NCBI GenBank assembly: GCA_027016355.1
Contig: JALWAF010000042.1
Coordinates: 1 to 13,514 of the forward strand
DNA length: 13,514 nt
Source of the DNA: Candidatus Moraniibacteriota bacterium
Lineage (GTDB): Bacteria; Patescibacteriota; Minisyncoccia; Moranbacterales; GCA-2747515
Direction: 5' to 3'
Shown: one piece after another, positions 247 to 11,207 of the stretch
How the letters are laid out: each line of letters starts with the position of its first letter
Numbering within the stretch: position 1 is the stretch's first letter
Position numbers and translations under genes: made by a program
Notes under the pieces: model-generated
Database searches by the model: none
The model's input: only the letters and a program-made list of their open reading frames with translations
What the model was told of the DNA's origin: nothing

Positions 247-3200
247 CTATGGTCTTGTTTCAATTATACGTCCTTTTGTGCAATCTGAATCAGAATTACA
301 TGTCGATGCACATTGAGCTCTGTTATTTGCTGGTTGCATCATCTTTGTACAAATACCATTAGTACTACAATGTGCATTCATACACACCGTTTGTACTATA
401 AAATCTTTATTTGCATTTTTTTCTGCATCATCTTTTATATGATTGTCATTACTATCAATCCAACACATTGCCTGAAAGTTATTATTTCCACCTTCCAATA
501 TCTTTACTTGACCAGGCGCTCCATTACATACAGTAATTTCTGGTACTTCATCATTGCTATGTGTTGTGCTATGTATAGCACAACAAACATTCTGACATTT
601 TATTGAAACATTGGACGTCATATTATTTGATAACATCACAGGATTTGTATATGTAAGTGGATCATCTAAGCAATCGGTGTCTTGTTTGTTTGCGTTGCAT
701 TGTACTGCCGGGGATTGTCCGACTTGACACTCCCAGTTCCAAGTACCATCTATGGCTTGAACATCTATCCAATATATACCACTGTAGTCACTTACCCCAT
801 TACATAATTCGCTTGGTTGCAGTGGTTTTGTATCCAAAACCTTGCCATTCGCTGAACCACACTGACTACCACATATTTGTTTATCAAAGGCATGACATTG
901 TTGACTACCACATTGCCAATAATACATTCCTTTTCTGTTATCAAAGCGTGTTTGACGATTACTTCCAAAATAATTATTGCTATCCACTCCCGGGGCATCA
1001 TCACCAACACACAACAACTCATCGTTATTTTTCAATGTATCATAACCAACACTTTGATTGCAACGATAATTACCATTTGCAACTAACATACAATTTTTAA
1101 CATTGTCATCAAAATCAACTATTTTTCCATTAATAGCACCACAATCGGCATACCCTTTCTTTTTTGCAAAACACTGACTGGTGCGTGTTGGATTATTACT
1201 TATAACTCTATCCACCTTGCAAACCAAAAAAGAAGACCCGTATCCATTTGGCTTATCGCCATCCTGCTTGCCTTCACACATATTATCATAATCATCATCA
1301 CACCACCCAGTAATAGAATTACATATTTTATAATATCTTTTTTCAGGTTTCTCACATGCCCACCACATATACCCTCCTCCACGCTGACCACTTACGAAAA
1401 ATGGGATCTCCGTACTACCTTTTCTGATATCAACAATTTGTTCATTATCATCAGACCACATGAATCCATTAACAAATTTCGGCGCGACATCATAAATATT
1501 TTTGTTATAAATAGAACAAAACCTATCAACATCTTCATATGATGCACTGCCTCTATTAAATCTTCCTTGATCACCAGATCCCATATGAGAGTAAAGATAC
1601 AATGTATTATTAGTATATTCACATTCCCAATCCCAAGTACCATCAGAAGCATCTTGATCAATCCATTTTACTTTTCCGTCCCAACACAATTGATCGTCTG
1701 GTGGACGCGTCTCATATGTTAGGGCTTGAGCCTTACCACAGCCGGCAAAATTCTTTAGACTTTCATCATTAACGGTTGAGTTAAAAAGTGGATAATACGT
1801 AGAACCGCAATTCGTTGTATATGATGTTTTGCATCCCCACCTTGGATATAATAATTCATTGCTGTCATCCTTGTAAATTTTGTCACCATAAGAATAACCA
1901 TAGGAACACAATTTATCTCTATCGTGTACCGGAAATTTGTACCTAAACCTAGCTGGTCCACACTGCGGACGCAAATTGATTACACATGAACCACTCTCTC
2001 TCGGCGTCAAACTTGATGAACATGTCTTTCTGTTCCCAGTAGCATATTGACCAGTATAACACTCCCAAGTGCACGAAGAAAGATTTTGTACTTTATTGGT
2101 TAATTTCCCCACACTACACAACCCTGTCGTCGGACAAGAATATCCACTTGTTCCATCTGCGCTACCACATTGTGGGGTATCTAAAGGTGGAGGATTGTCC
2201 TTTATTTTCTTGGCCTGACACCCCACACTTCCTCCTTTGCCATTACAATTCCACCAAAACCTATCTGACTCTTCGGTAACTGCAGTAGCTGTTGTGTCCG
2301 GTCCGCAAAGCCCTGTTGATGGCTTGGTTTTAAACTCTCCTCCATCAGCCGGTCCACAGGTTGGATCACCATCATCCTGTTTCTTCTTAACGATTACCTG
2401 GGCTATACATTTTCCCGTTTTTGCAGAGTCATTTCTTACCGTTAATTCACAACGCTCTATTCCGGTAGAAGTAAAGGGGTCTTGTGGATTATTTAGATGT
2501 AGTAATCCAGGATTGTTTTTGATATCAGCTGGAATTGGTCCAGTACAATACAAATCTCCGGTAGTAGCGTTACTGGCTGAAGAAGATAAAGTTACCGATT
2601 CTCCCACCTTTGCAGTTGATTTATTAAAAGACAAAGTACAAGTTGGTGACGCACATGTCGGAACTATATATGGTGCATTGTAATAGACATCCACATCATC
2701 CTTATGATCCTTTAAATCTCGAAACATGAAACGAAATCTGGCTGTATGATTACCTGAACCAACAGTTTTCGTTACTTGGGCACTTTTAAGTCCATATCCC
2801 GACATTCCACTACCAACATCACGAAATCTATCGTTATAATCTTGCATATTGTTACAATCAGGACAATAAAAACCATAATAGTTTTTATCACAACCGTTAT
2901 CTTTAATGCATGAACCTCCATTAACTTTTTGATCAGATGTCCCTGGTTTACAATGACCAAAATCATGATAATGTCCTGTTCCCCCTGATGCCTTACATTG
3001 TCTGATATAAATTTCAGAATCCTTTACTAAAGACTCAAATTGATTATTTACAGTTGGTTTCCACTGAATTTCAAGACTTCTTTTATGATTCTGACACACA
3101 TTCCAACTAATTCGTGCCTCTCCACGCATTGTAGAACAATCTCCAGTTGGACTAGCATCATAATAACAATATCCATGGTTATTAGAACTATTTGGACCAC

Positions 3201-5910
3201 ACTGTACAGTAATACCCGCATGTACACTATGAGCACCCATTAAAACACCAAGAGTCATTATCAAAACAAATAGTCCAATACTGCCATTGTGATGTTTTCT
3301 GGTTAGATAAATTAACCATGTTGCTAAGGCTATTATAAATAATATGGCAAAGATAAGCATTACTATCTTAGATAATGCTCTATCACTTTGTGATGAAGAT
3401 TTTGAAGAATCTTTTACAACATTTTTAGTTTCTGTATAAAGTTTGTATTCATTGCTATCAAGTAATTGACCATTTTCATCATAAAGAGAAATGTTTGCTA
3501 CCGGTTTTTTACAATCTTTAGTTGCTTTTTTCTCAATTATGATATCATATGCACCATCTTCTCCGGAAATATCTTTTTTAATATCCTCTGCACATTTTTT
3601 ACCTTCAGATTCAATAGTGCCTTTTAATATCATGTTTTTTGGTTGTATAGATTTTTGACTGCGAGCACCTGGAAAGGAATCCGCTGAACCAGCTATGAGT
3701 ACTTTTGCGATAATTTTATCTCCTTTTTTGTATTGTTGTTTGTCGAATGAAACAAAACTCAAAGATGCGGACTCCCCTTGTAAAACAAAATGTGCCACAA
3801 CTCCAGTTGCCACTTTGTCATTATTATTTAAAAAATTAAGTCTTGTATCGTAATATCCAGGTAATTGTGGATGTGGAATTTCAAAATTAACTGTTTTTGT
3901 TGATTGTTTGGTAAGTACATTTTCTTTTCCTTTCCATGTTGTTTCAATTTTCCCATTATAAATTGACTTTTTATAAACAGCTATCTCCGAAGTATATGTA
4001 ATATCTTGATCAGAATTATTATCTACATCACATTCAATGGATAATTTTTCTTGCGGACTAATATCTACACCATCAGAAAGCAAAAATTGTTCTTTATCAT
4101 TTACAAATAATGAACAATCATGTATTGTAATACCTTTTGTATCTTGTTGTGGTAAAGCAATGTTATCAATAATATAATCTTCCAATACCAAACCAGTACG
4201 ATCCGCTCCCATGATACGCAAAGATACATTTCCTCCTATAAATTTTGGAGCTGTAAAATAAATGACTTCTTTTACAGAACTTTGTGGAGCAATTGTTGTT
4301 GCTCCTGGTATAACTTCTTCATAGATCACTCTTTGCCCCTTTAATACTTGTACTGAATTAACAAGATTGGATAATACCTTTGTATGATGGTTGACTATAT
4401 CAAAGGAAATAGTCATCTTTCTATTATCTTTTTTATCTTGTTCTACAGTTACTTTTTCAAAATCAACATTAGCAACAATGTCATCACTACTGCCTTCAAT
4501 CACTTTCACTGATGAATCTACAATATCTGAGTTGTTTTGGGCAAAAGTATTTTGTGAAACAACACAAAATATCACTATTAAAACAACCGACATAAAAATC
4601 TTTTTGTTTTTCACTAATTTTACAAGTAAAAAGAAAACAAGGATGGCAATAACGATAATTACTCCCCAACTGATTATTTTTTTCCAATTCAATATTTTTT
4701 CTGTTTGATTGTTTTGTCGAATCTCTCCTGAAACAATTCCCGTATCAAACTCATCTTTGACCAATATTTGCCCGTCTGTTGTACGAATTTCTATGGAAGC
4801 AATGGGACTGACACACTCTTTATCCATTTCTATATCAAAAAAATATGTCGATTTTGTATTATCTAATTTTTGTTTAAATTCTCTTGCACAAGATTGATTT
4901 TGATTATCGGCAATATCAATGATTATTTCTCGTTCTTTATCTTGTGGGGCATCTTTAATCCTTCTACCTTGAAAGTTATGCGCGGAAGAAGAAACAATTA
5001 TCTCTAAATGAGCTTTATCTCCTTTCTTGTAGACTGTTTTATCAATAGTAAGACTATTTATAGTTGCCGATTCTCCAATGATAACATAGTGAACGGGAAT
5101 TGTATTTGATATTGTGATAAAATTTCCATCTTGCAAACTCACAAGAGTTGTATAAGCTTGTGGTTGGTATTGAATAGGAATTTCTACAGTCAAAACTCGC
5201 TCTTCGTTTGGAGTAATTGTTTGCTCTTTACCTATTTGTGTAATGGGCAAAGCCTTTTTACCAAAGGCGGAATGATAATGGGTATCAAAAGCCGGAGTAA
5301 AAACTATTTCTTGTTTAAGATTGTTTTTAATTCTATCACAATGCAGGAAAAGTTTTTCCTCCTGTTTTAAATCAACCCCTTGGTCAAGGGAGTATTTCTT
5401 GTCTCCATCTCCGATTGTCAAATAACATGAATGAGGATCAATTGTAGCACCCTCGTTGGTCTTAATCTCCACAAAAGGAATTGTTTTAGACGCAAGGATT
5501 GTCCCAGATTGATTAGCAACTACAATATCTAAATCATAATCTCCATTAAAAGATGCTGGGGGGTAATATTTAAAAGTTTTATGAACTATCTGTTTGTTGT
5601 TTAAAGAAAAAGTATCACCAAATGTAGCAATGTCTGCAAATTGCCTATCTTCTCCTTTAGCATTAACCTTGTAAGCTTTGATGATGTATGTTACTCCTGG
5701 TTGAGCTTTATCTTCATTATTAATAATATCAAATGCAATTGATATTTTACTATTTTGTTCCCTATTTTCTATTACTGCATTATCAATAGAAACATCTGCC
5801 ACGGTATATATTTTTGTTTCAAGATTGTCTTGTTGTTTTTCTTCTGCTTGTGCATGTGTAATATGTAATGGCAAAATAAGTAGAAGAAGAAGATAGAGAT
5901 ACTTTTGCAT
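247..5910 (-). CDS. Giant three-unit secreted/membrane protein (1,887 aa) with internal signal-peptide-like helices and Cys-rich repeats
   Basis: I do not recognise this as a named family. Residues 1-22 form a signal peptide (cleavage near HITHA-QA). Unit A (about 23-400) is beta-rich and is followed by a membrane helix at about 413-431 and a short KNKK loop. Residues 439-457 form a second signal-peptide-like segment ending SQNTFA-Q. Unit B (about 458-835) is homologous to unit A: both carry a 'GxTIxxxxC...GVDxxxxEKLxxxC' stretch, a 'GESAxxxxxxxDKxxYKKGDK' stretch and 'PxAxIxxxxxxGQxL'. A membrane helix follows at about 849-869, then a third signal-like helix (877-898, ending HSVHA-G). Unit C (899-1887) is Cys-rich. 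It has an Ig/PKD-like stretch (about 1085-1176), repeats starting CGxAxG (about 1185-1741), and near the end an EF-hand-like loop with D1819, N1821, N1823 and E1830. The ATG at 5910 fits the signal peptide and lies about 36 nt below a good promoter; there is no SD motif. The predicted role is an exported surface protein or adhesin, possibly cut into three mature chains. Function is unknown. Confidence 0.85.
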   Translation of the reverse strand: MQKYLYLLLLLILPLHITHAQAEEKQQDNLETKIYTVADVSIDNAVIENREQNSKISIAFDIINNEDKAQPGVTYIIKAYKVNAKGEDRQFADIATFGDTFSLNNKQIVHKTFKYYPPASFNGDYDLDIVVANQSGTILASKTIPFVEIKTNEGATIDPHSCYLTIGDGDKKYSLDQGVDLKQEEKLFLHCDRIKNNLKQEIVFTPAFDTHYHSAFGKKALPITQIGKEQTITPNEERVLTVEIPIQYQPQAYTTLVSLQDGNFITISNTIPVHYVIIGESATINSLTIDKTVYKKGDKAHLEIIVSSSAHNFQGRRIKDAPQDKEREIIIDIADNQNQSCAREFKQKLDNTKSTYFFDIEMDKECVSPIASIEIRTTDGQILVKDEFDTGIVSGEIRQNNQTEKILNWKKIISWGVIIVIAILVFFLLVKLVKNKKIFMSVVLIVIFCVVSQNTFAQNNSDIVDSSVKVIEGSSDDIVANVDFEKVTVEQDKKDNRKMTISFDIVNHHTKVLSNLVNSVQVLKGQRVIYEEVIPGATTIAPQSSVKEVIYFTAPKFIGGNVSLRIMGADRTGLVLEDYIIDNIALPQQDTKGITIHDCSLFVNDKEQFLLSDGVDISPQEKLSIECDVDNNSDQDITYTSEIAVYKKSIYNGKIETTWKGKENVLTKQSTKTVNFEIPHPQLPGYYDTRLNFLNNNDKVATGVVAHFVLQGESASLSFVSFDKQQYKKGDKIIAKVLIAGSADSFPGARSQKSIQPKNMILKGTIESEGKKCAEDIKKDISGEDGAYDIIIEKKATKDCKKPVANISLYDENGQLLDSNEYKLYTETKNVVKDSSKSSSQSDRALSKIVMLIFAILFIIALATWLIYLTRKHHNGSIGLFVLIMTLGVLMGAHSVHAGITVQCGPNSSNNHGYCYYDASPTGDCSTMRGEARISWNVCQNHKRSLEIQWKPTVNNQFESLVKDSEIYIRQCKASGGTGHYHDFGHCKPGTSDQKVNGGSCIKDNGCDKNYYGFYCPDCNNMQDYNDRFRDVGSGMSGYGLKSAQVTKTVGSGNHTARFRFMFRDLKDHKDDVDVYYNAPYIVPTCASPTCTLSFNKSTAKVGESVTLSSSASNATTGDLYCTGPIPADIKNNPGLLHLNNPQDPFTSTGIERCELTVRNDSAKTGKCIAQVIVKKKQDDGDPTCGPADGGEFKTKPSTGLCGPDTTATAVTEESDRFWWNCNGKGGSVGCQAKKIKDNPPPLDTPQCGSADGTSGYSCPTTGLCSVGKLTNKVQNLSSCTWECYTGQYATGNRKTCSSSLTPRESGSCVINLRPQCGPARFRYKFPVHDRDKLCSYGYSYGDKIYKDDSNELLYPRWGCKTSYTTNCGSTYYPLFNSTVNDESLKNFAGCGKAQALTYETRPPDDQLCWDGKVKWIDQDASDGTWDWECEYTNNTLYLYSHMGSGDQGRFNRGSASYEDVDRFCSIYNKNIYDVAPKFVNGFMWSDDNEQIVDIRKGSTEIPFFVSGQRGGGYMWWACEKPEKRYYKICNSITGWCDDDYDNMCEGKQDGDKPNGYGSSFLVCKVDRVISNNPTRTSQCFAKKKGYADCGAINGKIVDFDDNVKNCMLVANGNYRCNQSVGYDTLKNNDELLCVGDDAPGVDSNNYFGSNRQTRFDNRKGMYYWQCGSQQCHAFDKQICGSQCGSANGKVLDTKPLQPSELCNGVSDYSGIYWIDVQAIDGTWNWECQVGQSPAVQCNANKQDTDCLDDPLTYTNPVMLSNNMTSNVSIKCQNVCCAIHSTTHSNDEVPEITVCNGAPGQVKILEGGNNNFQAMCWIDSNDNHIKDDAEKNANKDFIVQTVCMNAHCSTNGICTKMMQPANNRAQCASTCNSDSDCTKGRIIETRP
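688..2358 (-). repeat. Cys-rich protein repeats in unit C of the giant protein
   Basis: Residues 1185-1741 carry diverged copies of a Cys-rich repeat. Copies start at about C1185 (CGPADG), C1248 (CGSADG), C1317 (CGPAR), C1391 (CGKAQ), C1590 (CGAING) and C1684 (CGSANG). The clearest copies follow the plan CG-x-A-x-G, then LC, then W-x-W-x-C or W-x-C, then C-x-A. The pairs DGTWDWEC (about 1423-1430) and DGTWNWEC (about 1721-1728) are almost identical. A large insertion between copies 4 and 5 (about 1431-1589) holds extra Cys and Trp, including WWACEKPE. Repeats of this general shape occur in many CPR surface proteins. The even spacing of Cys suggests disulphide-bonded extracellular modules. Confidence 0.7.
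3217..3375 (-). other. Junction B/C: membrane helix followed by internal signal-peptide-like helix
   Basis: This stretch encodes residues 846-898. It repeats the layout of the first junction: a membrane helix (about 849-869), a short basic RKHHNGS loop, and a second hydrophobic segment (about 879-893). The segment ends GAHSVHA-G, a good A-x-A signal peptidase site. Cys-rich unit C begins immediately after it. No Met lies at the head of this helix (M885 and M891 are inside it), so readthrough from unit B is the simplest reading. Confidence 0.6.
4537..4680 (-). other. Junction A/B: membrane helix followed by internal signal-peptide-like helix
   Basis: This stretch encodes residues 411-458. A hydrophobic helix (about 413-431) is followed by a positively charged KLVKNKK turn. 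A second hydrophobic helix starts at an internal Met (M440) and ends in an A-x-A-like signal peptidase I site (TFA-Q). The predicted topology is outside to inside to outside, so unit B would be exported again. The DNA before M440 (4591-4593) is an A-rich leader like those of the true starts here, so internal initiation is possible. No stop codon separates the units. Confidence 0.6.
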
Positions 5911-6138: not shown

Positions 6139-6636
6139 TTAAATTGTTTGTTCAAGATGAAAGTTCCAAAGTCCTGCACAGATAACACTCATTTTGTCAT
6201 CCATGTTAGGTAATTTATTGCGATAAATATCACTAGCAGCTTTAAATCGTTTGTATCCACCAATAGCATGTTCTGATATAATTCTAATCCCAGAGATAAT
6301 TCTATTATCTCTTTTTTGTTTATCTGTAAGTTTTACATTTTTAGTATTCTTCTTGGGCATAATAGTATTATTATGTTGGATTCCTTGAAATCCTGTATCA
6401 GTCCAAATAGTTACATCCTCTGGTATTGCTCTAGCCAGTCCTGTTTTATCAGTTATTCTTTTATCATGTCGTCTACCGCTCTTAGTCGGAGTCATAAAGA
6501 GAATCTTTTTCTTTTCATCATTTAAAACAATCATTTTTCTAGTGGTAGTTTTTTTTCTTTCCAGAGTACAACTTACTTTTTCTTCTATTGTTAGTTGGTT
6601 TTTGTACAGGTCTTTCAGCTCCATCAATAAAAACAT
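6139..6636 (-). CDS. IS5-family transposase, C-terminal half (orfB; DDE_Tnp_4-like)
   Basis: This frame carries the second half of the catalytic domain: the second Asp (D80 in WTDTGFQG) and the Glu (E122 in SEHAIGGYKRF), followed by a typical C-terminal GLWNFHL. The first 29 codons after the nominal Met do not look like transposase. Homologous sequence begins at about TTTRKMIVLND (near 6549), exactly where the upstream frame runs into an A8 tract. The true product is therefore probably a fusion of the first 163 residues of the upstream frame with the last 136 of this one, about 299 aa. The nominal start at 6636 is unlikely to be used. The alternative is that the element is dead through a 1-nt indel. 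Confidence 0.8.
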   Translation of the reverse strand: MFLLMELKDLYKNQLTIEEKVSCTLERKKTTTRKMIVLNDEKKKILFMTPTKSGRRHDKRITDKTGLARAIPEDVTIWTDTGFQGIQHNNTIMPKKNTKNVKLTDKQKRDNRIISGIRIISEHAIGGYKRFKAASDIYRNKLPNMDDKMSVICAGLWNFHLEQTI

Positions 6637-7039
6637 CTTTCAATTCTGGGCATCGTTCAAATACTTCTTCTAAAGATGTAGCTTTTCTTTTTGGTAGAAC
6701 CAACTTTCGTTTTAAAACTTTCTCCATGACTGGCAGAAGTAGTTGAACTGTGTCACCACACTTACTTCTTTGATGATTTGTCAATACAGATAACACATCG
6801 TAAGTTGGATAAATCTTTAAATACATTAAAATGTAGAAAAGCTTTTCTTTATCAGTTGGTAAATCACCCTTTCTACCACCGCCTACGCTTCTTATTCTAT
6901 TTGGATAGAGCTCATATCTATGTTCAAGTAAGCATTGCTTAAACACAGGTAATAACTCTTCAATTTCTTTGTAACTCATTCCGAATACTGCTTTACAAAC
7001 TCTTTCATTTTTAAGAACACGATGTTTATTGATAATCAT
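6539..7039 (-). CDS. IS5-family transposase, N-terminal half (orfA)
   Basis: The 166-aa frame holds a helix-turn-helix region. It includes the GGGRKGDLP-x-x-KEKLFYILMYLKIYPTYDVLS stretch typical of DDE_Tnp_4-type transposases (about 53-84). The first catalytic Asp follows, in FIDGAERPVQKP (D139). The family-like YSGKKK sequence (158-163) is followed by only NYH and a TAG stop, so the frame ends in the middle of the catalytic domain. The rest lies in the overlapping frame. The start at 7039 is the first Met inside the element and has no SD motif. Confidence 0.82.
   Translation of the reverse strand: MIINKHRVLKNERVCKAVFGMSYKEIEELLPVFKQCLLEHRYELYPNRIRSVGGGRKGDLPTDKEKLFYILMYLKIYPTYDVLSVLTNHQRSKCGDTVQLLLPVMEKVLKRKLVLPKRKATSLEEVFERCPELKDVFIDGAERPVQKPTNNRRKSKLYSGKKKNYH
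6549..6556 (-). promoter_or_regulatory. A8 slippage run joining orfA and orfB
   Basis: The minus strand reads GGA AAG, then eight A, then CTACC. The upstream frame decodes it as KKN-YH-stop. The shift needed to continue into the catalytic second half is +1, equal to loss of one A. Transcriptional slippage on a run of eight A, or +1 ribosomal frameshifting, would yield the fusion protein. A real or sequencing indel is the alternative. Confidence 0.55.
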
Positions 7040-7083: not shown

Positions 7084-7102
7084 TTATTTAGGGACAGGTT
7101 TA
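7084..7102. repeat. Right terminal inverted repeat of the IS5-family element
   Basis: This is the partner of the left end. Its minus strand supplies the last five codons (KPVPK) and the TAA stop of the interrupted IS66 reading frame. Confidence 0.85.
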
Positions 7103-8133
7103 CAATGTTCTTTAGTTTCTTTTTCTAATTTATCTGAATTAGCTAAGTCTCTTAATTTTCTATGAGGATGAGCCCAACATAATTGATGATCTTTAAAAAG
7201 ATTGGCATAGGCATTGTAATCATCACTTATTCCTATTAGTTTTTTATCTCCTTGTATTTTTTTTGCTACACCTCTTCCTCTACTTTTTCCAATATTAAAA
7301 ACCACATCTTCATTATCAGTGCCTGTTAATATCCATGCATAATTACCTAATTTACCAGAGTGCACCTTATATGATGTTTCATCCATGTGAATACCTTTTT
7401 GTTTTCTAATACTTTCTTTTAATCTTTCAAATTCAGGTTTTAATGCTTGAGCTTCGCTATTGAGTATATTACTAATTTCTCCTTCTGATAATTTAAAATT
7501 ATATGTATCTCTAAATAGTTTCACTATTTGACTGTAAGATGATTTTAGTAAAATAGCTAGATAAGTAACATACATTTTAGCATTTTTACCAATAACTACT
7601 TTAGTAGAGGGTAAGTTTATAGCATTATGATATTTTCTACACTTACTACAATAACCTTTTTCTACAATGTGTTTTTCAACAATCTTTGAATTACTTTCTT
7701 TACTAGGTAATTCAATATCTTCTTTAAAAAAGATATGTATACTTTTACTTGTTAGCTTTGTGGTACAATCAGGGCAGGTATCTATTGAATGATTAACTTC
7801 CTTGGTAATTTCTGAATCTTTTGGAATATTTCTTTGATAAGAATCTTTAGATCTTTTAGTTTTATCTATCTTTTTATTTGTTTTTGTACACTTTAACTTT
7901 TTCTTTTTTGGCTTAAAAACAATCTTTCTTAATTCTTCTACTTGAAGAGTTAATTTTTCTATCATTTTATCCTTTTGTTGTAAAGTGTTTTCTTGAATAG
8001 CTAAGGCTTTTTCTAATAACTCAATTCTTGTTTTTAGTTGAGATTCTCTTTTTTCTAGTAATGTATTTTTTTGTGATAACAAAGCATTTAATTCGCGAAG
8101 TCTAAAAACTTCTTTCTCTGATATTTTTTGCAT
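7084..8133 (-). pseudogene. Truncated IS66-family transposase (TnpC)
   Basis: The frame shows a leucine-rich coiled coil (about 10-70), a basic linker (75-100), and the IS66 zinc-finger (C120-x2-C123 and C162-x2-C165). The start of the DDE domain follows, with the first Asp in HMDETSYK (D251), the second in GISDDYNAYA (D304 or D305), and CWAHPHRKLRDLA (319-331). IS66 transposases usually run to about 450-530 aa and carry the catalytic Glu further on. Here residues 345-349 (KPVPK) and the stop come from the right end of the inserted IS5-family element, so the Glu is missing. Even with the IS removed, only about 8 further codons look plausible before unrelated repeats begin. It should be inactive. 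The start at 8133 has an A-rich leader and no SD. Confidence 0.88.
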
Positions 8134-8202: not shown

Positions 8203-10428
8203 TTACTTACGAATCTTGCGTAGTTTTTTGTATTTTTTAATCATTTTTCTATATTTGTAAAACAATATTATACACACAATAGTAAGAATTATGATAATAA
8301 GCACACAAAACCATGGGCATTTCATATGGCGTGTAACTTCAAAATCTGACAAAAATTTTGATTTTATAATATAATCGTCACGTGATAGAGAAACTGCAGA
8401 TACTTTATGTATACCGTTTGGAAAAATATTTGCCATTTCTATGCGCCATTTACCATCATCATCTGATAGACCTGTCACAATTATTGGCTCTGATTCAATT
8501 AAAAGTGTTACTTTTGTGTTTGGTGTAGCAGTTCCTTCAAAAATAACAATATCATCTTGTACGATAATAGATAGATTTGTGTCAGATGAAACATCAAATT
8601 CATTAATTTTTGTGAGTGTAATGTTAGATATTTGTGTATTAGCAATACTTGAGCCTGCTTTTAATATATCCACCACATCACTATCTTTTTTGATAAAATC
8701 TTTTAAAGCATTACAATTTTCATATTTTATAATAGTTTTTGTATTTTTTTTATCATCACATTTTTTATCATCACATTTTTCACATTTTTCACATGGCTGA
8801 CAAACTTCACAAGTCCCATTCACGCCAGTAGCCAATCCAAAAGAAACTTGTGTGGAAGCATTTCCACTAAAATCCCTAGCATTAACTATAACCTCTAAGG
8901 CGTATTCGAGAGAAAAATCATCGACTGCATCAATTGTTATAAAATAATCTGCTGGCGTACCTGTATATGTAAATTGATTAGTCCCACTACTAGTGTATTC
9001 AATACCATCTACAATAGCACTAACCGTATCAATATCTACACCCACACCACTATCAGTACAATGAAACGTCACATTATCACTAGTGCCCATATTTACAACA
9101 TTTGGCGTTGGTGTAAAAAGTTTACAAACCGGACCAATCGTATCAGCCGTTGTAAAAGTATATGAATCATGCTGATGATTTACTGTTGGACATCCATAAT
9201 CATCTACATCAATAGTTACGGTTACTACAGTATTTTCTGGGAAATCATCAACAGGATCTATAGAAATTGCGTAATCATAAACATTTCCGTAATCATTTAC
9301 GCTAATTGGGTTCGCTGATAATTCACTACTCGCCGTTGTGTACGTTTGTGTTCCCCAATCAGGAGCTGAAACAGTTACTTGCAATGTTGATATATCAACA
9401 CCTGTACCAGCATATCCACCAGGATTTGCAACATCTCTTATATTAAAAATTATATTATCATCCTTACTTACACCTACCGCAGAGTCATTTGGATTTTTAT
9501 TATAAATTTCAGCTGAATCATTGTCTGATTCTGTATCAAAGCTATAATTGTAATTATTTAAAGTGTGCACCGTAGGGTTTCCTAAATCTGAAACCGAAAT
9601 ATCCACTGTATAATTTTCACAATAATATAAATTATTTGTCGGATTCAAAGTTGTATCACAATAAGGAACACGATTAGCATTTGTGGTATGACAATTGTGT
9701 GAAATTTGTCCACTACCAGCAGTATAATTAGTTATTCCCCAATTAGCTCCTGTTAAACTTTCAGTTAAACTAGAAAAATCAACTCCAGCATCATCATCAT
9801 TTAAACGATGTAGAATATTGGAAATTACTTGAACATCAGTAGCTCCATTAGCTGGATTTTCATTATTAACGTAGGGAATATCATTATCATCGGCAAAATG
9901 CAGAGTATAACTATCAGCATGTTCTAAAATATCATTTCCACTTCCATATTCTGCTAAATTTGTGTCTGTGGTATTTCCAACAGTAAACTCAAAATCTAAA
10001 TCATAATCTCCACCACCGTCCAACACAGTAAAGTAAAAATGTGCAAAGCTATCATTACCATTGTATGGATGTCCTGGATTATTATAAGCTCCTAAAGTAA
10101 TTTTATTACTGGTTACATGGTTATTAGGATAATTATCATATTGTGACGCTGGATAAATTGTGGTTGCCGCTGTAGAACAATCATCATTTACAATGGCAAT
10201 TCTAGAATTATCATAATTTATTTCCAAATCAGCACCTCCTGTATCATGTCCATCAGTATCCAATAACACATCTACTCGTACACATCTACCATGATAAAAT
10301 TCATTACCACTCCCACCCTGGCCCTCTGGCACACTAAAAGTAAAGGACGTATCAGCACTGGCAACTTGTACACAAGTAAAAAATATTATTACAAAAAACA
10401 AACTCTTCAAAAATCTTCTATTTAACAT
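8203..10428 (-). CDS. Membrane-anchored cohesin-like surface protein (741 aa)
   Basis: Residues 1-25 form a signal peptide (cleavage near VASA-DT). Residues 27-180 resemble a cohesin: an RVDVLLDTDGHDTGGADLEINYD strand pair, an ITLGAYNN stretch, then a FAHFYFTVLDGGG-type strand. Three related Ig/cadherin-like repeats follow (about 186-300, 305-428 and 433-533). They share NPxxxAxxV or related openings, GVDxSxL, WGxxxYT and xDDFxxxxxVTVxxDVxD. A Cys hinge (540-557) contains CxxC steps. A Big-like domain (about 629-695, EGTATPNTKVTL) precedes a membrane helix (about 704-723) and an 18-residue basic cytoplasmic tail. Many Asp residues fit a Ca-dependent extracellular protein. It starts 32 nt after the dockerin-like gene, so the two should be co-transcribed. 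The predicted role is a surface receptor for dockerin-bearing proteins. The cohesin call rests on pattern only. Confidence 0.78.
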   Translation of the reverse strand: MLNRRFLKSLFFVIIFFTCVQVASADTSFTFSVPEGQGGSGNEFYHGRCVRVDVLLDTDGHDTGGADLEINYDNSRIAIVNDDCSTAATTIYPASQYDNYPNNHVTSNKITLGAYNNPGHPYNGNDSFAHFYFTVLDGGGDYDLDFEFTVGNTTDTNLAEYGSGNDILEHADSYTLHFADDNDIPYVNNENPANGATDVQVISNILHRLNDDDAGVDFSSLTESLTGANWGITNYTAGSGQISHNCHTTNANRVPYCDTTLNPTNNLYYCENYTVDISVSDLGNPTVHTLNNYNYSFDTESDNDSAEIYNKNPNDSAVGVSKDDNIIFNIRDVANPGGYAGTGVDISTLQVTVSAPDWGTQTYTTASSELSANPISVNDYGNVYDYAISIDPVDDFPENTVVTVTIDVDDYGCPTVNHQHDSYTFTTADTIGPVCKLFTPTPNVVNMGTSDNVTFHCTDSGVGVDIDTVSAIVDGIEYTSSGTNQFTYTGTPADYFITIDAVDDFSLEYALEVIVNARDFSGNASTQVSFGLATGVNGTCEVCQPCEKCEKCDDKKCDDKKNTKTIIKYENCNALKDFIKKDSDVVDILKAGSSIANTQISNITLTKINEFDVSSDTNLSIIVQDDIVIFEGTATPNTKVTLLIESEPIIVTGLSDDDGKWRIEMANIFPNGIHKVSAVSLSRDDYIIKSKFLSDFEVTRHMKCPWFCVLIIIILTIVCIILFYKYRKMIKKYKKLRKIRK
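8746..8793. repeat. Tandem DNA repeats encoding the Cys hinge (2 x 15 bp and 2 x 9 bp)
   Basis: TTTTTTATCATCACA occurs twice in tandem (8746-8760 and 8761-8775), followed by two tandem TTTTTCACA (8776-8784 and 8785-8793). Read on the minus strand they encode CEK-CEK-CDDKK-CDDKK. Every unit is a multiple of three, so copy-number change would lengthen or shorten the hinge without breaking the frame. Confidence 0.8.
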
Positions 10429-10460: not shown

Positions 10461-11207
10461 TTAATCTCCTATAACTGCATAATTATTAACAGTTTTTGTC
10501 ATATCTAGTGAATTAACTTGCCCATTTTCATCTACATCAGCTCTCTCATCAGAAACTCCACTATCATTAATTGCCCACCGTGAAGTGAGATATGTTACAT
10601 CTACTGAATTTACCATATTGTCCCCATCTGGATAGCTACCATTAACATAAACATCACCACAAAGTAATTTTTCCGTTCCAGCAAAAGTAAAATCTATATT
10701 ATTAGTGCCACCAGTTAAAGTTACATTATTGAGCCGCTTCCTTAAATGAGCATAGCCTTTTACTGCAATATCATAAGTTCCCGGGGAAATATCAGTCAAA
10801 ACTAATCCTGTATAATGTCCATTATTATCCGTATCATAATAAGAGTAACTGTGAAGTGGAATTGCCCCACCAATTGCATAAATATCTATAATAACCCTGG
10901 TACTATCATTTCCAACTGCTGGAATCCTTTTCTCTGGAATTACTGTAAAATCAATAACAACATCAGCGTCATCTGGATATAAATGACCATGTCGAATATG
11001 ATAGTTAGCACTATTTGATTCATCTACTGTTACATCCCCTACCTGTTGTTGATTGATTGTATAATTATTAGATTGTGACTTTTGTCCGCCACTATTGCCA
11101 GAATTAAGGGGATCAATCGCATAATTAGTTGACGAAATCGCCCACACTCCAATAGGAACCATGAGAAATACTACTCCAATTATAAGATACTTGTGATTAA
11201 CTAACAT
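10461..11207 (-). CDS. Secreted dockerin-like domain protein (248 aa)
   Basis: Residues 1-23 form a signal peptide (GVWA-IS). Three N-Y motifs follow (STNYAI about 26-31, SNNYTI 46-51, SANYHI 66-71), a spacing seen at the N-terminus of many CPR exported proteins. Residues 84-178 form a beta-rich pre-dockerin module with VIPEKRIP, GTYDIAVKGYAHLRKRL and NVTLTGGTNNIDFT. Residues 183-246 look like a type I dockerin. The second Ca loop is canonical (D224-x-D226-x-N228-G-x-V-N-x-x-D235). The first keeps GDV...D194-x-D196...VNSVD203 but has about six inserted residues. The gene has its own extended -10 promoter and precedes the cohesin-like gene by 32 nt. It probably acts outside the cell, bound to a cohesin. 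No enzymatic domain is visible. Confidence 0.82.
   Translation of the reverse strand: MLVNHKYLIIGVVFLMVPIGVWAISSTNYAIDPLNSGNSGGQKSQSNNYTINQQQVGDVTVDESNSANYHIRHGHLYPDDADVVIDFTVIPEKRIPAVGNDSTRVIIDIYAIGGAIPLHSYSYYDTDNNGHYTGLVLTDISPGTYDIAVKGYAHLRKRLNNVTLTGGTNNIDFTFAGTEKLLCGDVYVNGSYPDGDNMVNSVDVTYLTSRWAINDSGVSDERADVDENGQVNSLDMTKTVNNYAVIGD

Follow-up and report, generated by a model that had tools for sequence, protein, structure and literature searches.

Probable internal signal peptides in a family of predicted secreted polyproteins of Patescibacteria

The DNA analysed here, which we call the window, is a stretch of 13,514 nucleotides that makes up the whole of contig C42 in a 1.16 Mb genome (G000) assembled as 189 contigs. 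Its minus strand carries at positions 247-5910 an open reading frame that runs uninterrupted from ATG to TAG and encodes a protein of 1,887 amino acids (P0001), confirming the reading frame of 1,887 codons described in an earlier sequence-only reading of this DNA. The protein contains five hydrophobic segments (residues 4-20, 417-433, 438-454, 849-865 and 877-893) and the three A-x-A-like motifs noted in that reading: HITHAQA (residues 16-22), NTFAQ (454-458) and SVHAG (895-899). Cleavage is predicted after A20, A457 and A898, and the two internal mature starts would be Q458 and G899, as originally given. The order of elements is signal peptide, unit A, transmembrane (TM) helix, basic loop, signal peptide, unit B, TM helix, basic loop, signal peptide and a cysteine-rich C part.

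All of these elements lie on the minus strand. The N-terminal signal peptide (residues 1-20; positions 5851-5910) was assigned from its sequence, its hydrophobicity and a classifier described below, with the site after A20 or possibly A22. It is followed by the unit A ectodomain (residues 21-411; 4678-5850), which has conserved cysteines and falls within the region for which the family shows a remote WxLIP-like profile match, and by the unit A TM helix (residues ~412-433; 4612-4677), recognised by hydrophobicity and not called signal-peptide-like by the classifier. The end of the first basic loop and internal signal peptide 2 (residues 435-457, NKKIF...NTFA; 4540-4608) lead to the predicted site after A457, and this peptide resembles N-terminal signal peptides of the genus (KKI...C..S.N.FAQ). 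The unit B ectodomain (residues 458-848; 3367-4539) is a near-match at the DNA level to a B-C gene on contig C9 of the same genome. Behind it come the unit B TM helix (residues ~849-870; 3301-3366), supported by hydrophobicity and the classifier, and, after a basic loop, internal signal peptide 3 (residues 876-898; 3217-3285), which is the internal signal peptide conserved in the family and has its site after A898. The C chain (residues 899-1887; 250-3216) is a predicted secreted, cysteine-rich passenger with no hydrophobic segment at the threshold that identified the other five, and no further TM helix was found in it. Its C-terminal module (residues ~1665-1887; 250-918) is common to other secreted proteins of the genus and had no homologues in a large protein set; its final residues, GRIIETRP (250-273), follow a pattern frequent in the family, W/F/I-x-E at the C-terminus or close to it.

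Searches of P0001 against Pfam, NCBIfam, PHROGs and the PDB returned no match above any cut-off. The C chain had no PDB match, and a profile of the A unit found nothing in the PDB better than E 0.2. An EssA match (E 1.5e-4) was set aside because it fell under its cut-off; it overlaps the TM helix of unit B.

Several other genes share the window. Just upstream of the polyprotein gene are transposase pieces (6139-7039 and 7084-8133), one of DDE_Tnp_4 type that spans two overlapping frames, the other of IS66 type. Further upstream and co-directional with it, positions 8203-10428 encode a 741-residue protein with a signal peptide, an Ig-like region below the Pfam cut-off, a cysteine cluster and a TM helix, and positions 10461-11207 encode a 248-residue protein with a type I dockerin over the Pfam cut-off. 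The two possibly form a cohesin-dockerin-like pair; Pfam detected no cohesin domain for the pair. The N-terminus of the 248-residue protein weakly resembles the CPR-type pilus protein PamT, but NF058579 scored 33 bits against a cut-off of 240 and covered residues 9-81 only.

Relatives of P0001 occur in many genomes. Of 54 related genomes searched with the P0001 protein, 20 gave matches, its own genome among them. At E<=0.001, a profile running from the A unit through the hinge (TM helix, basic loop and second helix) had matches in 61 of 128 genomes for the order, 46 of 383 sampled ones for the class and 25 of 286 sampled ones for the phylum, these three samples being overlapping ones. The 12 loci matched at the nucleotide level by the A query (A4) include four from Moraniibacteriota and one each from Campbellbacteria, the Parcubacteria group and the Patescibacteria group, and named protein records of the family come from Moraniibacteriota and Pacebacteria. 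The usual family protein has a signal peptide, an ectodomain of ~390 residues with conserved cysteines, a TM helix, a basic loop, a second helix and a variable part that is often rich in cysteine. When 132 non-redundant family ORFs were sorted by a script rule, 106 were called fused, 21 stand-alone A and five other, and by this count the family norm is the two-part form, in which an A unit (signal peptide, ectodomain, TM helix and loop) is followed in one ORF by a signal peptide and a C part. Among the ORFs fetched, P0001 alone has two complete A units, and apart from the window gene the three-part A-B-C arrangement was seen in just one protein, which differs from it by a single residue (P0002). 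When eight family proteins were scanned for passenger domains, TSP1, CARDB and an InlB-type repeat each passed the cut-off in one protein. We found no description of this Patescibacteria family in the open-access literature searched.

We consider it highly probable, from the sequence comparisons that follow, that the window gene encodes a secreted polyprotein which signal peptidase I (SPase I) would cut at internal signal peptides to give an anchored A, an anchored B and a secreted C, that it arose by fusion of A-type genes, and that A and C are partners. The biology of the Sec machinery and of SPase I is established, and the steps proposed here are derived from it. Sec would export unit A until transfer stops at the TM helix of A; export would restart at the internal signal peptide behind the short basic cytoplasmic loop; and SPase I would then cut outside the membrane, at the A-x-A site that follows. 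The chain before the cut would retain the internal signal peptide as a second helix at its C-terminus. A usual member would thereby yield, one-to-one, a membrane-anchored A ending in a hairpin of TM helix, loop and signal peptide, and a secreted, often cysteine-rich C. For the window gene, fusion of another A-type gene (B-C) behind A would have turned the N-terminal signal peptide of B into the middle internal one, and the anchored chains A and B and the secreted chain C would result. Most likely, A would serve as a surface anchor or as a partner of C, in the manner of WxLIP and WxL proteins, and C would be a variable, outward-facing passenger.

The architecture itself is directly visible, as is the presence in the genome of an SPase I gene (PF10502, E 3e-46, over cut-off). 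The second helix was examined in 107 hinges from the 106 ORFs called fused by script, of which the 100 with a clear second core were scored. Among the seven left unscored (L169:9025, L174:3873, L048, L199, L032 twice and L127), those of L127 and L199 have a second helix by eye that the automatic rule missed. The scored hinges come from 70 genomes belonging to 50 genera in 19 families, with two pairs more than 90% identical in the A unit. A 15-residue window behind the second helix contained the motif [AVSTG]xA in 97 of the 100; the corresponding figures were 14 of the 100 for the adjacent TM helix and 56 of 226 for control helices taken from the interior of 38 polytopic proteins of the same loci; alanine-rich helix ends are thus common by chance, with 25% of controls passing. 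In a first hinge set, the motif followed 61 of 65 second helices, 55 of 64 of the proteins' own N-terminal signal peptides and 8 of 65 first TM helices (TM1), the corresponding means for shuffled windows being 44, 40 and 7. Because shuffled windows still give a mean of 44 out of 65, alanine richness accounts for much of the motif count, and the contrast between second helix and TM helix is a stronger argument than the raw number.

Other properties of the second helix point the same way. Its median hydrophobicity (2.63) equals that of the N-terminal signal peptides (2.63), while that of TM1 is 3.37. The loop before it carries a net charge of at least +2 in 98 of 100 hinges and has a median length of 11. 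A home-made classifier of signal peptides and TM helices, a weak one trained on a noisy set of other proteins from the loci (cross-validated AUC 0.77), called 90 of 100 second helices, 83 of 100 N-terminal signal peptides and 22 of 100 TM helices signal-peptide-like; in P0001 it gave 0.79 and 0.68 for the internal segments, 0.69 for the N-terminal signal peptide, and 0.43 and 0.40 for the TM helices. Threonine occupies position +2 of the predicted mature C chain in 34 of 61 cases, and the cleavage site therefore tends to lie at a fixed place relative to the passenger. The proposal that the window protein is cut into three chains had named as its refutation homologues that conserve an uncut architecture with non-cleavable helices; the opposite is seen, the canonical site being kept in nearly all scored hinges, and together with the split homologues described below this supports the cleavage reading.

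The same topology would be produced with or without cleavage, and the second helix might instead be an ordinary TM helix, with A and C joined by a membrane hairpin in an uncut multi-pass protein. The predominance of fused forms in the script-sorted set would fit such a protein, as would the 3 of 100 scored hinges in which the strict motif is absent. The resemblance of the second helix to N-terminal signal peptides, and its dissimilarity to TM helices, argue in the other direction, as does the repeated occurrence of two-gene versions that are split at the loop, mostly with the signal peptide on C. On balance we regard the uncut protein as quite unlikely.

These split versions answer a check proposed in the sequence-only reading, namely that related genomes might carry the units as separate genes. 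After three of the 21 ORFs called stand-alone A were discarded by eye as fragments (L193:9445, L108:3360 and L124:1474), 18 intact stand-alone A genes were found, whose proteins all terminate 4-13 residues past the TM window, that is, within the basic loop. In 16 of the 18, a co-directional ORF begins within 400 nt downstream (-31 to +239), and 14 of these 16 downstream ORFs show homology to C parts of fused family proteins (E<=1e-4); this homology between split and fused C parts, like the split homologues themselves, is a direct observation. The downstream ORF of L173 shows homology to fused C over short stretches only, and those of L168 and L061 show none. The signal-peptide motif rule was passed by 12 of the 16 and failed by L166, L163, L061 and L173. 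Six of the 18 stand-alone A genes (L028, L038, L040, L041, L042 and L045) belong to a divergent A subfamily that matches the A profile with at most 25 bits per domain; leaving these six out reduces the set to 10 downstream ORFs, of which 8 have homology to fused C and 6 satisfy the signal-peptide rule. The window's own genome holds one such pair on contig C189 (L045), where a divergent-type A gene of 473 residues is followed after 1 nt by a signal-peptide-bearing C gene of 633 residues, which is 63% identical over 216 residues to the C part of the fused protein L058.

A rapidly computed tree comprising 127 A domains, of which 20 are split, needs 13 changes between the fused and split states, compared with a mean of 18.8 when states are shuffled, and at least 10 changes are forced by well-supported branches; many branches of this tree are long and weak, and the count is a guide. 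The tree leaves out the ORFs of a ten-entry skip list, among them the stand-alone A gene L171:1871. If a covalent link between A and C were important, repeated changes between fused and split forms at a single place would be difficult to account for, and the repeated splitting at the loop suggests that no such link is needed. The gene pair at L032:2404-5534 is split differently: its A protein (420 residues) ends before the TM helix, and the next ORF (623 residues) starts within that helix with a 4-nt overlap. This arrangement is either a frameshift or a real soluble A.

Separate production of the downstream chains could also come about if translation started within the loop, B and/or C then being made additionally as separate proteins whose internal signal peptide is truly N-terminal. 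An ATG, GTG or TTG is present in 71 of 100 loops, and some split forms overlap by 4-31 nt, as this explanation would allow. Yet 29 of 100 loops hold no start codon, an SD-like sequence precedes a start codon in only 9 of 100, and the ATG at the first junction of the window gene (M440) lacks one, starts without such a sequence being possible. We therefore regard an internal start as highly improbable, and cleavage of a single translation product as the preferred account.

The window gene differs from the family norm in its second A unit. The nearest relative of its unit A is P0003 (62% over 378 columns), in which the A unit runs straight into a passenger, and the nearest relative of unit B is the paralogue on contig C9 (86%). 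The repetition described in the sequence-only reading thus stands to the extent that the series of signal peptide, ectodomain, TM helix, basic loop and signal peptide does occur twice and that A and B are homologous, but a tandem duplication was rejected, as the tree pairs unit A with P0003 and unit B with the C9 paralogue. Judged from this tree, A and B are two lineages of the family. Compared with the C9 gene, the window DNA is identical at 79 of 81 nt from the codons of the cleavage site onward and at 88% of 1,564 nt across B and the start of C; no DNA similarity between the two was found upstream of the cleavage site. The internal peptide of the window protein, KKIFMSVVLIVIFCVVSQNTFAQ, aligns with the N-terminal signal peptide of the C9 protein, KKISFALAFVLLLCTTSNAFAQ. 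Glutamine occupies position +1 at 22 of 55 N-terminal sites, and the A-B site of the window gene is the sole one with glutamine among 61 internal sites. Because of the C9 DNA match, the alignment of signal peptides and the glutamine at +1, the A-B joint looks like a gene fusion in which the N-terminal signal peptide of B became internal, and this is the reading we prefer.

Assembly error has to be weighed separately for the two kinds of join. For the A-C joins an artefact is very unlikely, because 100 hinges were found in 70 genomes. The A-B fusion might instead be an assembly chimera between repeated paralogues, the A-C polyproteins being real. Paralogues are indeed repeated in this genome, contigs C9 and C10 both have an end located within a gene of this kind, two A units occur in no other fetched ORF, and the join is known from two near-identical sequences. 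Against a chimera, the frame is kept, the peptide before the breakpoint resembles a normal signal peptide, and P0002 (1886 of 1887 residues identical) carries the same A-B joint; the longest contig listed for its cluster is 6,126 bases, and it may come from the same sample. We judge a chimera to be unlikely and favour a genuine fusion.

A possible role for the A unit is suggested by a remote similarity. In a single comparison by hhalign, the A-unit profile matched a set of 12 WxLIP-like proteins of the same order, chosen by a short motif among the fetched ORFs, with a probability of 96.8 (E 2.5e-10) over 167 columns at 11% identity; none of seven control comparisons (six shuffled, one reversed) exceeded 0.3. 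WxLIP proteins have a signal peptide, two Ig-like domains and a C-terminal TM helix, and are encoded beside their secreted WxL partners (PMC10599100). Stand-alone A genes show the signal peptide, the TM helix and a basic tail; by the profile match, their ectodomain may have an Ig-like fold. In 118 genomes of the order, the PGBD domain (PF06030) matched family ORFs only below its curated cut-off (best E ~0.001) and exceeded it in 19 genomes, in every case outside family loci; the HBD domain (PF11797) exceeded its curated cut-off in none of the 118, its best match (E 0.0012) lying inside a family ORF of G110. No WxL domain was detected in P0001 (E<=0.1) or in eight other family proteins (E<=0.01). 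The family thus resembles the WxLIP/WxL system in the profile match and in its predicted pairing of an anchor with a secreted partner, but the A units lie below Pfam thresholds, the passengers scanned lack a WxL domain, and WxLIP and WxL, as described, are separate genes, unlike the A-C fusions. By this analogy, A and C most likely work like a WxLIP-partner pair, without our calling them one. Elsewhere in the same genome, on contig C9 (L043:12059-16294), a protein over the PGBD cut-off is encoded near small secreted proteins, which together may be a WxL-like cluster in Patescibacteria.

The passengers have a feature in common at their ends. A strict tail pattern, [WFI][KRQEI]E[VITKR] followed by up to four residues, closes 49 of 79 complete fused proteins (examples are NWKEVAP, WREVAP and RIIETRP) and 26 of 1,267 other ORFs; as it was defined once the protein ends had been inspected, the count is descriptive. 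About half of the 26 other matches are, by eye, signal-peptide-bearing, cysteine-rich neighbours, or fragments of these or of family members from overlapping loci. The common tail suggests a docking or sorting step that passengers may share. Stand-alone secreted proteins with a W-x-E tail and cysteine-rich ends share loci with A-unit genes (L117:1261-3534, L117:4202-5962, L122:3601-6342, L126:1979-3604, L126:6949-8490 and L116:3337-5343), as if one anchor served several passengers.

The surroundings of family genes in other genomes were varied. Type IV pilus genes (PilM, PilN, PilO, PilB or PilC) accompany a family gene in 6 of 69 wide loci (L028, L033, L035, L053, L109 and L119), too few for a general role as a pilus component, which we rejected and keep as a lead only; PilM-like matches in L047 and L123 (E ~1e-7) are, by eye, probably FtsA. 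In L047, L102, L110, L112 and L123 an FtsZ-like gene, itself preceded by an FtsA-like gene, is found one or two genes upstream of the family gene; the FtsZ and FtsA assignments were made by eye from the N-termini.

Two or three exported chains made from one reading frame by way of internal signal peptides are familiar from viruses. The predicted processing resembles that of viral glycoprotein polyproteins, in the accounts of which chains are separated by signal peptidase at internal signal peptides; unlike these, the family gene is a cellular bacterial one without a PHROGs match and has natural split versions. A bacterial polyprotein separated at an internal signal sequence is FbcH of Bradyrhizobium, the precursor of cytochromes b and c1, which differs from the present family in consisting of respiratory proteins. 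The open-access literature searched held little on internal-signal-peptide polyproteins in cellular bacterial genes. The mammalian protein IGSF1 offers a close parallel, with an exported Ig-loop part, a TM helix, an internal signal peptide and a second exported part separated by signal peptidase, and its authors argued for an origin by gene duplication and stated that, to their knowledge, internal signal peptides served in the processing of no further cellular protein (PMC9162367). Unlike the present family, IGSF1 is processed in the eukaryotic ER, and both of its halves are described as Ig-loop TM proteins (PMC9162367). In Staphylococcus aureus, SpsB cuts LtaS at A217/S218, behind a polytopic TM domain, and releases the extracellular domain; bacterial SPase I can therefore cut an internal site behind a TM domain (PMC10865820). 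LtaS, as presented in that work, yields one released domain, with no second exported part and no interchange of split and fused forms (PMC10865820).

Cleavage, the ratio of the chains, binding between A and C, and an adhesive or host-contact role are what we infer from the comparisons above. Going further, the family may represent surface-display polyproteins of Patescibacteria, in which a WxLIP-like anchor would be made together with a fast-changing passenger that is released one-to-one by SPase I and held by its tail, the signal-peptide junction serving as the point at which passengers, or entire second anchor-passenger genes such as the one in the window, are exchanged, joined or split. We regard this as a reasonable possibility that falls somewhat short of being probable; within it, the W-x-E-x-x-P-like tail of the passenger would be held by the anchor or by a shared sorting factor.

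Looking ahead, this is a conserved family in many, mostly uncultured bacteria, and its natural split versions allow comparative testing. If the cleavage reading is true, secretome predictions that consider the N-terminus only would miss secreted passengers. Cultivated members of these bacteria are described as living on other microbes (PMC12206443), and the anchor-passenger pairs would, if the reading holds, be candidate cell-contact proteins.
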